From: Xenococcaceae cyanobacterium MO_188.B19
GTDB taxonomy: Bacteria > Cyanobacteriota > Cyanobacteriia > Cyanobacteriales > Xenococcaceae
DNA length: 50,251 nt
Assembly (NCBI GenBank): GCA_030065715.1
Contig: JASJDF010000001.1
Span: 1-50,251, forward strand
Direction of reading: 5' to 3'
Part shown: in pieces, positions 13,617-18,003 of the stretch
How positions within the stretch are numbered: position 1 is the stretch's first letter
Layout of the letters: every line of letters starts with the position of its first letter
Notes under the pieces: generated by a model
Databases searched by the model: none
The model's input: only the letters and a program-made list of their open reading frames with translations
What the model was told of the DNA's origin: nothing
Made by a program: the position numbers and the translations under genes

Positions 13617-16600
13617 ATGATGTCTACACCTGATTCTATGATTCCCCATAATCACGAAGGTCACAATCACGGTGGTGAGCCAATGCCACCGCTTCCAAAC
13701 CCAGAACCCTTAGCTTCTGGTGGTCAAATTTTAAAAGTAGATGGTACTACACAGAGAATAACAAACTTCGATCCAGCTAAAGATAAGCTCGACTTAGGTA
13801 CTGATTCCATACATAATCAGATAGCTATCGATACACCCGAAGGCATAGCTTTCCAAAATTTATTTACTCCAAGTAAATCTCTTACTCTTGTTGGTGTTTC
13901 TCTCAAAGACCTCAAAGCAGAGAACTTTACAGCAATATCAGATGCTCACTTACAGCAAGACCTCAGTGCTGCCTTAGCTTGGGAGAACGGTACTGGATAC
14001 GTCAGACCCAATACAGTATATATTCGTTCTCACGAACAGAATCTCCAAGAAGAAGTAGACTTCAACCCAGCTACAGACAAAATCAGTTTCTTCTACCTAA
14101 GTGTACGTGGAGATAATCAACTAAATTTTGCAGTGGAAGAAACTGCTAAAGGAGCTAGATTCTACAGCCCAATAACTAATCAAAGTATTACCCTCAAAGG
14201 AATCAAGTTTTCTGATTTGGATAGTTCGCACTTTGAGTGGAGAGCCAATCAACTAGAAGACAATATTGCTGACAGAATGGGGCTATCCGATAAAATAGTC
14301 GATTTTAGAATCGTTGATAGCAATGTGTTTAGCGGTAAGAGTGTTCCGATGGCAGGACTCGTGGATAGAGCGCCTTATCACTCACAGCCAGAATATACTG
14401 GTACAAGAATAGACTCAAATCCAGACCCAGTCGATCCAGTTGACCCAGTCGATCCAGTTGACCCAGTCGATCCAGTTGACCCAGTCGATCCAGTTGACCC
14501 AGTCGATCCAGTTGACCCAGTCGATCCAGTTGACCCAGTCGATCCAGTCGATCCAGTTGATCCCACACCTGGCAACTCAGAAGTAGATTTTGCAATTACT
14601 AATGATTGGGGTAGTGGTTATCAAGGTCAGGTAGAAATTAGCAATAATGATAGTAGTCAACTAAATGGTTGGACTCTGAAGTTTAAATTTTCTGGCAAAA
14701 TCAATCAAATTTGGAATGCGGAAATTGTCAGTCAAAATGGGAACACTTACATCATTCGCAACGCCTCCTACAATGGCACAGTCGCCTCTGGTGAAAAAGT
14801 CACCTTTGGTTTCATTGGAGAAGGTTCAGCATCCAACTTACCTGATGTATTTGAACTGAATGGAAAAGTAGTAGGAGAAACACCCACCACACCTACAGAC
14901 CCCGATCCCATGAAGTCAACAATTGCCGAGATTGTGGCAAAAAGTGGTGGAGAATTTGACAGCAACAACCAAGACTTCGATATTCTATTTCAAGCACTCG
15001 AAGCAGCAGGTCTTACTGATGCTGTAGCCGATCCAGCATCAGACTTAACAGTCTTTGCTCCTACTGATGCAGCTTTTATCAAATTAGCGCAAGACTTGGG
15101 CTATCAGGGCAATGATGAAACTGGTGCATACAATGCTATTGTGGGCGCACTAACAGAGTTAGGAAATGGCGACCCCATTCCTGTACTGCAAGATGTTTTG
15201 AAATATCATGTTTCTGCTGGAGCAAAAACTCTCAATGAAGTGAAGGGAGCTAATTCTGTCAATACATTGCTAGATGGTGCAAAGGTTACACCTAATGGGA
15301 ATACTTTAGGAGATAAGGAACCAGATTTAGCCGATCCCAAATTTGTTAATGGTTTAACCAACGTAGAAGCTAGTAACGGTATTATTCAAGGTATTGATCG
15401 AGTATTACTTCCTTTGGATCTTCCTGGTAATAACTCCACACCTACAGACCCCACTGACCCGACAAATCCTACAGATCCTAATCCACCGACAGGAAATAAT
15501 CCAGGAGCATTTAATTACGCTGAAGCAATACAAAAGTCATTCCTATTCTACGAAGCAAATCGATCGGGTGAACTACCAGCAGACAACAGAATTCCTTGGC
15601 GTGGTGATTCTGCCCTCACTGATGGCGCAGATGTAGGTCGGGACCTAACTGGTGGTTATTATGATGCAGGAGATCATGTCAAATTTGGTCTTCCTATGGC
15701 AGCAAGTATGACTATGCTCGCTTGGGGTGCGGATGAATATAGTGATGCCTATGAAAAGATTGGTCAGCAGGACGAAGTGTTAGATGCAGTTAAATGGGGA
15801 ACTGACTATATCCTTAAAGCCTATGACGATAAAGGCACAGCCGATGTTTCCGATGATGTGTTCTACGGACAAGTAGGTAATGGACAAGCAGATCATTCCT
15901 TCTGGGGTCCTCCAGAAATTATGACTATGGATCGACCTGCATACAAAGTTGACGCTCAAAACCCAGGTTCAGATTTGACTGGTGAATCTGCTGCTGCTTT
16001 AGCCTCAGCTTCAATTATTTTCCGTTCTAGTGATTCTGCTTATGCAGATAAGTTATTAGGTCAAGCTCAAAAGCTTTATGAATTTGCCGAAACCTACAAA
16101 GGTAAATATTCAGAATCCATTACTGATGCACGAAACTTCTACAATTCCTGGAGCGGTTATACTGACGATCTAGCTTGGGGAGCTACTTGGTTACACAAAG
16201 CTACTGAAGCAGCAGGTCAAACTGATACTCAATATCTTGCTAAAGCGGAACAATACTACCAAGATACCAATGGTGTTCAATATGCACCTTGGACTCAAAA
16301 CTGGGATGATAAAAAGTATGGTACTGCCATCTTACTTGCCCAAGAAACAGGAGATAATCAATATCAAATTCAAGTAGAAGGTTGGTTAGACCGTTGGATG
16401 ATAGATAGAAGCCAAGGCGGAATTCCTAAATATACTGAAGGAGGATTAGCTTGGTTAGATCAATGGGGAGCAAATCGTTATGCTGCTAACACAGCTATGC
16501 TTGCTGGTATCTATGCGGATACAGTAAATGACAAAGGTGGTCAGTACTCTCAGTTTGCTGAGAATCAAATCAACTATATGTTGGGAGATAATCCGAATAA

Positions 16601-17003
16601 CTTTAGTTATCAAATAGGTTTTGGTGATAATTATCCTCAAAATCCCCACCACCGAGGCGCACATGCTTCTCTCAATAACAATATCAATGGCGGTGAAACC
16701 AAACATATTCTGTATGGAGCGTTAGTGGGGGGACCCAGTCAACCTAATGACAGTGCTTACAATGACAGAAGAGATGATTATATCTCCAATGAAGTAGCGA
16801 CGGATTACAATGCTGGATTCACGGGAGCTTTGGCTTATTTAGCTAATAAACATGATGATATGCCTTTGGCTGATAGTGAAATTCCTAAGCTATTTGGTTC
16901 TGATACTACACCTCCAGCATCACCATTCGCATCGGATTCTTTCGACTCAGACTTTAACTCTCAAAATACAGATGATGTGTTTGCTCAATCATCTAACTTC
17001 TAA
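13617..17003 (+). CDS. Multidomain GH9 endoglucanase (CBM2-like, fasciclin/FAS1, GH9)
   Basis: CBM2-like [39 protein letters not shown]1 [20 protein letters not shown]9 [59 protein letters not shown] and [18 protein letters not shown] motifs. Confidence 0.92.
14429..14564 (+). repeat. In-frame 18-bp tandem repeat (GTCGATCCAGTTGACCCA; VDPVDP linker)
   Basis: Direct reading; unit repeated about seven times. Confidence 0.95.
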
Positions 17004-17045
17004 TTAGGACCAGAACTAGTTAGGGGTAAAGCTAAGGAAGCTACC

Positions 17046-17372
17046 AGGCGATCCAACAGTAAACGGACAAAAAACAACGCTCGACGTATAATTCGATAGA
17101 GTAAAATCCTGAAACCCTTATTCAGTTAACCTTTGACCAATTTTACTATCAGTACACTTTTTATTAGTTCAAAAAAACTACAAAAAGTTTCTGATAATTA
17201 TACGACCAGTTTTTTGATAGATAATTACTGTTTTTTCGTCGAATTATACGCTCAGTTAGCCAAAAGCAGACGTAGAACTTCCTTTATACGTACAGTTTTT
17301 CGATAATTCTGACTAAATAATTATAATTATACGCGCAGCGTTGTTTTCTGTCCGTTTACTGTTGGATCGCCT
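17046..17372. mobile_element. 327-bp MITE-like element or transposon-end remnant with 45-bp imperfect inverted repeats
   Basis: 17046-17090 versus reverse complement of 17328-17372: 41/45 identical (AGGCGATCCAACAGTAAACGGACA...). TATACG motifs at 17199, 17245, 17285, 17328 and an inverted one at 17085. Confidence 0.75.
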
Positions 17373-17376
17373 AGAT

Positions 17377-17402
17377 AAAATCCTCACTATTGAGGATTTT
17401 TT
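17377..17402. terminator. Rho-independent terminator-like hairpin
   Basis: AAAATCCTCACTATTGAGGATTTTTT. Confidence 0.7.
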
Positions 17403-17424
17403 AATTGCTATACAAAGGCGAGAT

Positions 17425-18003
17425 TTAAAATTTCAATGTTGAAATTGCATTCTCTTTTTGCTGCTCCGTCACTCCCAGATATCTTTCTAAAGCAGCTAAA
17501 GTCTTGTGTCCCGATATAGCTTGAATATGCCTTAATGGAACACCAGCATCACTCATACGGGTTAAAGCTGTCCGTCTAAAACTGTGAGTACTGACCCCTT
17601 CAATCTCAAGCTGACAACAAACATCTCTCAGTATCTTGTCAGCACTAGCTTTATGAATATGATTTCTACCATGACGACCAGGAAACAGAAAAGGGCGATC
17701 GCTCCATTGACCCTTTTTTTGATACACCTCTAAATACTCTCGAAGCTGGGGATGGACTTGAATCTCTCTAGTTTCCTGCTTCCCCTTAGTGTTGTAGCGA
17801 CGGATCACCAATACATCCCTTACTCCTTTAAGACCGATCACATCCCCTCGATTTAAGGTACAAGCTTCATTAATTCGTGCTGCTGCATAGAGACAGACAC
17901 CGAACAAAGCGAGATCGCGCGGTTTGGTAAATCCCTCGTTAAATAGTAAATTTATTTGTGTGGGAGTTAGTATTGCTGCCCGTCCAAACTTATTAACTTT
18001 CAT
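17425..18003 (-). CDS. Tyrosine recombinase/integrase, catalytic domain only
   Basis: AARINEAC (Arg), HSFRRTALTRM (HxxR), GHKTLAALERYLGV (H...Y). Confidence 0.88.
   Translation of the reverse strand: MKVNKFGRAAILTPTQINLLFNEGFTKPRDLALFGVCLYAAARINEACTLNRGDVIGLKGVRDVLVIRRYNTKGKQETREIQVHPQLREYLEVYQKKGQWSDRPFLFPGRHGRNHIHKASADKILRDVCCQLEIEGVSTHSFRRTALTRMSDAGVPLRHIQAISGHKTLAALERYLGVTEQQKENAISTLKF

Follow-up and report, generated by a model that had tools for sequence, protein, structure and literature searches.

A miniature Tn3-derived element of coccoid cyanobacteria carrying a putative TnpI-type resolution site

Positions 17047 to 17371 of the window, i.e., the whole 50,251-nucleotide stretch of Xenococcaceae cyanobacterium DNA analyzed here, hold a gene-less 325-bp miniature element derived from a Tn3-family transposon (TIME) and equipped, judging from sequence comparison, with a TnpI-type resolution site. 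Most of the named hosts in which this family occurs are coccoid cyanobacteria (Xenococcus, Hyella, Myxosarcina, Waterburya, and Pleurocapsa). The proposal made in a preliminary description of this DNA, that of a non-autonomous derivative of a transposon, is borne out, and its parent can be assigned to the TnpI-carrying (Tn4430/Tn5401) type of the Tn3 family. The "phased motifs" of that description are the internal resolution site of the parent transposon, a putative target of TnpI. Altogether, we hold with high confidence that the element has kept the putative cis-acting sites that the two steps of replicative transposition require and lacks both enzymes.

An inverted-repeat search delimited arms at 17046 to 17093 and 17325 to 17372 (92% complementary), and recomputation of the 45-bp ends returned the same 41/45 match as first described, which is by a wide margin the best inverted 45-mer pair up to 400 bp apart in the window, the runner-up reaching 31/45. 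The inverted-ended element of 327 bp initially placed at 17046 to 17372 was thus real in kind and slightly too wide in its bounds: the outermost A/T pair (17046/17372) is flanking DNA, base 17046 being part of a neighboring terminal-repeat remnant, and the proper ends were set by relatives bearing target duplications and by alignment with nine full-length relatives (324 to 327 bp, GGCG...CGCC). No open reading frame of at least 80 aa lies within these 325 bp. The left terminal inverted repeat (17047 to 17093, forward strand) combines a Tn3-type end with a TnpI-like site and matches, in inverted orientation, the right one (17325 to 17371, reverse strand), which was recognized from the inverted-repeat search and the alignment of copies.

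The motif TATACG was found again at 17199, 17245, 17285, and 17328 on the forward strand, and its inverted form CGTATA at 17085, all at the positions first listed; the 4.67-Mb genome contains eight copies of TTATACGNNCAG, four falling within a 141-bp stretch of the element. Overlooked so far was CGTAGAA at 17271 to 17277, the inverted partner of TTATACG at 17284 to 17290 across a 6-bp spacer (CTTCCT, 17278 to 17283), the whole forming a putative recombination core at 17271 to 17290. Two direct repeats on the forward strand precede it, at 17196 to 17209 (92.7% identity among copies; in autonomous relatives the tnpI-proximal one, ~45 bp upstream of tnpI and 46 bp from the next repeat) and at 17242 to 17255 (91.0%). 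The inverted core and the two direct accessory repeats that characterize an irs are hence all present. The copy at 17328 sits in the right terminal repeat, where it belongs to a TnpI-like site at 17327 to 17338 and pairs with the CGTATAA site of the left terminal repeat (17085 to 17091, reverse strand; block 17085 to 17097 98.5% identical among copies), so that the layout reads as one site, then two direct repeats and one inverted core, then one site, rather than as one site plus four. Such an extra TnpI-like site at each end, as published for Tn5401, is also seen at both ends of the autonomous loci L036 and L038. The alignment gives the same order in the relatives: a direct repeat, a second one 46 bp on, CGTANAA-N6-TTATACG 40 bp further, the right-terminal-repeat site, and an inverted match in the left terminal repeat. 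The spacings of 46, 40, and 43 bp therefore stand, and the near-helical phasing formerly read into them does not, since they represent a conserved resolution-site geometry with no uniform helical phase. A search with the core pattern returned 30 matches, of which five off-register ones were discounted by eye (in the window, L009, and L012 on the minus strand, L044 at 3474, and L126 on the plus strand). Between the left site and the array, a weakly conserved segment of 98 bp (17098 to 17195; mean pairwise identity, 64.7%) is missing from the autonomous relatives examined.

The search for relatives with a transposase, suggested in the preliminary description, identified two loci in which the ends of the element surround genes, with the arms flanking Tn3-family tnpA. 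In L036 (genome G041), the order is end, array, tnpI (303 aa), tnpA in broken pieces, and end; in L038 (genome G021), where nested elements form a mosaic, the right-hand part reads tnpI, tnpA (990 aa), and end. The 990-aa TnpA combines DUF4158 with the Tn3 DDE domain (PF01526, 5e-140) and matches the Tn4430 TnpA structure in the PDB along its length (E = 2e-180), so that the miniature element shares its ends with transposons of the PF01526/DUF4158 kind. The TnpI of L036, a tyrosine recombinase, has a SAM-like and a catalytic domain, and its nearest solved relatives are XerC/XerD-like. The source genome, 76% complete in 436 contigs, yielded no tnpI of the L036 type at E <= 1e-40, and its tnpA copies are all broken, none of them with the element's array. 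On one of its contigs (G000:C317, L078), two broken Tn3 tnpA genes enclose a further transposase-like gene and a 202-aa recombinase; the array was looked for there and found to be absent. The whole element had no match in plasmid records and its 98-bp left segment none in phage records. The left segment was also compared with the tnpA 3' ends of L036 and L038 and showed no similarity, because tnpA stops near the terminal repeat.

The array lies directly upstream of tnpI in every tnpI locus found whose upstream flank survives, and its direct repeats are 46 bp apart wherever both are present; in G021:C258 this flank is interrupted by another transposon, and in G037 and G018:C95 the array is kept only in part. 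The same inverted core geometry occurs in relatives, including tnpI-linked ones. Moreover, TnpI-TnpA elements of Candidatus Bandiella numerosa and Legionella fallonii plasmids, whose TnpI proteins are 48 to 52% identical to that of L036, show the same motif. Upstream of tnpI, the Bandiella element carries CGTATAA four times, at intervals of 56, 41, and 45 bp, where chance would give ~0.05 copies per 200 bp, and once more, inverted, after tnpA; the Legionella array, likewise upstream of tnpI, comprises three direct copies at intervals of 41 and 46 bp, an inverted arm completing a 6-bp-spaced core. This conservation of motif and geometry across phyla is, at the level of sequence comparison, the strongest argument for the array being the site of the recombinase. 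Recombinase matches in Carboxydocella and Ammonifex were rejected as TnpI-TnpA elements, with no Tn3 transposase in the stretch examined.

Two other readings of the repeats were weighed, both extending suggestions of the preliminary description. According to one, the element would derive from a Tn7-like transposon and the repeats would be transposase-binding sites of the TnsB type, for which the asymmetry of the motifs near the ends, one left and several right, could speak. However, the transposases found between these same ends are of the Tn3 family, the ends start with GGCG and not TGT, the array adjoins a tyrosine recombinase gene, and an inverted core with a 6-bp spacer is typical of a recombinase site, so that the array would be the site of the resolvase rather than of the transposase; we give the Tn7-like origin practically no credit. 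According to the other, the repeats would form an iteron-like control region, or the attachment site of the neighboring integrase, since a tyrosine recombinase gene indeed lies adjacent (17425 to 18003, reverse strand; 192 aa; PF00589, E = 1e-20). Yet the element and its array recur without this integrase, the recombinase to which the array is linked is a different, full-length one, and DNA matches of relatives to the integrase region begin at its stop codon, which makes this reading very improbable as well. Neither the integrase gene nor the gene on the left of the element (13617 to 17003), encoding a cyanobacterial GH9 cellulase with CBM2, a fasciclin domain, and a long proline-rich repeat linker, is part of the element. 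The 192-aa recombinase consists of the catalytic domain only and is repeated in the genome and in the family, a homologue lying near a convergent Tn3 tnpA in G013:C97. A hairpin followed by a T-run (AATCCTCA-CTAT-TGAGGATT, 17376 to 17404, read from the sequence) separates the element from the integrase gene, and the sequence at 17405 to 17420, TTGCTATACAAAGGCG, is found again close to tnpA in two further genomes (L184 and L185) and, as two inverted copies, in L037 (near 9960 and 10244), possibly representing another small repeat family.

BLAST searches over relatives revealed whole-length copies in many genomes of the Xenococcaceae. Nine other full-length copies of ~325 bp are 73 to 82% identical to the window copy, the 10 aligning over 324 to 327 bp, and a broader sample, 390 genomes drawn from the order, contained 12 Xenococcaceae genomes (the source genome included) and three others with matches at E <= 1e-15. 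The target duplications expected of a transposon are perfect and 5 bp long around GGCG...CGCC in three relatives (ATTTA in L013, TCCTT in L017, and AAATA in L027), and absent at the window copy, which is flanked by TACCA and TAGAT; about 10 other two-ended copies, the window's included, are without perfect 5-bp duplications, which may reflect aging, adjacent deletion, or recombination between copies. As for empty sites, removal of the element and of one duplication from L017 or L027 restores an intact target that is present uninterrupted elsewhere. For the window copy, the GH9 gene is found without the element downstream in G002, in G012, and at a diverged paralogue in the source genome (G000:C361), the intergenic DNA being too diverged to give the exact site. 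Hence, the element is dispersed and not conserved in place. Longer two-ended elements with the same ends were also observed, at L050:5285-5764 (~480 bp, with flanks ATCTA/ATTTA, a near duplication), L053:3086-3472 (~390 bp, with the array beside the left end), and L043:5088-5751 (~660 bp).

Identity among miniature copies is 88.8% at the sites versus 69.0% in the rest of the interior. This bears on a rival that shares the Tn3-derived origin and takes the array for a parental relic, the cointegrates of the miniature element being resolved by homologous recombination. Many copy-bearing genomes have no close tnpI and the core arms are damaged in some copies, as such a relic would predict; nevertheless, a comparison of copies from several genera shows clearly higher conservation at the sites than in the intervening DNA, and we regard a relic array as rather unlikely. 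The 6-bp core spacer, with its better conserved flanking arms, is the least conserved of all 320 six-column windows of the alignment (35.9%). The second-lowest window (37.0%) falls within the unconstrained left segment, so that free drift is sufficient to account for the variability of the spacer. Copies within one genome have different core spacers in G021 and in G026, and the two G013 copies have identical ones.

We propose that a retained, usable resolution site takes part in the following two-step process. A related transposon would supply TnpA in trans, which would join both ends of the element to a target, resulting in a 5-bp duplication and a cointegrate. TnpI, also in trans, would then bind the internal resolution site and exchange strands across the 6-bp core spacer, thus separating the cointegrate, the two direct repeats acting as accessory sites that would impose direction. 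Both the mobilization by TnpA and the binding and resolution by TnpI are deduced from sequence features. The window copy probably inserted into a terminal repeat of a different Tn3-family transposon, the DNA on its right being later lost or exchanged, which would explain its unduplicated flanks.

Three copies, the window's and those of L017 and L027, lie within terminal repeats that belong to unrelated Tn3-family transposons. Immediately to the left of the window element, positions 17023 to 17046 (forward strand; GGGGTAAAGCTAAGGAAGCTACCA) hold the outer 24 bp of a different Tn3-family terminal repeat, cut at the first base of the element and identical (24/24) to the inverted ends, left and right alike, of a tnpA-carrying element in G001:C451; the latter is whole, its ends surrounding a 975-aa TnpA and a 235-aa recombinase-like open reading frame, and the remainder of the remnant's transposon is absent on the right of the window element. 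The same kind of terminal repeat is split by L017:195-518, and a second kind, found beside tnpA in several genomes, by L027:1153-1476, both with perfect 5-bp duplications. An inverted pair of this second kind, ~390 bp apart at L205:180-572 (G017:C29), is apparently a miniature element of a different Tn3 lineage. The first kind has 14 matches in 27 genomes, i.e., ~500 bp in ~158 Mb, and two insertions into it among ~45 insertion sites are far above the uniform expectation (~1e-4 by rough arithmetic), this being a small post hoc count with the window copy as its starting point and a uniform model being applied although transposons gather in dispensable DNA. These insertions may reflect a target preference for other Tn3 ends. 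Insertion sites of Tn3 have long been described as resembling its own ends. In tyrosine recombination, the overlap must match only between the two partners; thus, sister copies in a cointegrate would always match and old copies would not. A still doubtful hypothesis combines both features: the miniature element would prefer the terminal repeats of unrelated Tn3-family transposons, thereby disabling the ends of competitors, and its diverging 6-bp spacers would block TnpI recombination between dispersed copies.

The element resembles the known TIMEs (TIME1 to TIME4, IS101, IMU, TIME244, and MITESen1) in being gene-less, a few hundred base pairs long, bounded by Tn3-family ends, and moved in trans (PMC4133298, PMC13367494). 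Of these, IS101 carries a functional res site, and a putative one is present in TIME244; these res sites are those of the serine resolvase TnpR, and TnpI is unmentioned (PMC4133298, PMC13367494), whereas the present cyanobacterial element has a site of the tyrosine-recombinase TnpI type and a further TnpI-like copy in each terminal repeat. We found no earlier report of a TIME with a TnpI-type resolution site. TnpI-encoding transposons numbered three (Tn5401, TnBth4, and Tn4430) in an ISfinder-derived set of 190 (PMC7157771, 2020). The irs of Tn4430 comprises an IR1-IR2 core, DR1, and DR2, and Tn5401 has an irs plus one DR2 copy near each end (PMC7157771). Tn5401 and TnBth4 of Bacillus thuringiensis share with the present element the irs layout of an inverted core and two direct repeats, and Tn5401 also the extra site near each end (PMC7157771); unlike the present gene-less element, they are autonomous and firmicute. 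The autonomous relative resembles Tn4430 in the match of its TnpA over its length and in its irs-tnpI-tnpA order, although the extra end sites are mentioned for Tn5401 and not for Tn4430 (PMC7157771). The Candidatus Bandiella numerosa and Legionella fallonii elements, with tnpI followed by Tn3 tnpA, the same motif, and near-identical spacing, are by contrast full-length and proteobacterial, and are annotated merely as a recombinase plus a Tn3 transposase.

Our analysis adds a cyanobacterial lineage, with proteobacterial relatives, to the TnpI-carrying Tn3 transposons. In this family, the geometry of the resolution site is conserved while its sequence drifts, and the miniature form keeps the whole site, thus providing material for natural comparison at a kind of recombination site that has been studied in very few other elements. 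The miniature form also lends itself to a simple test of whether a miniature element can resolve the cointegrates that it forms. Recurrent insertion into the ends of other transposons would, if it holds, be a target preference worth explaining, and if spacer insulation and targeting are both true, a genome could carry many recombination-proficient copies without rearranging.
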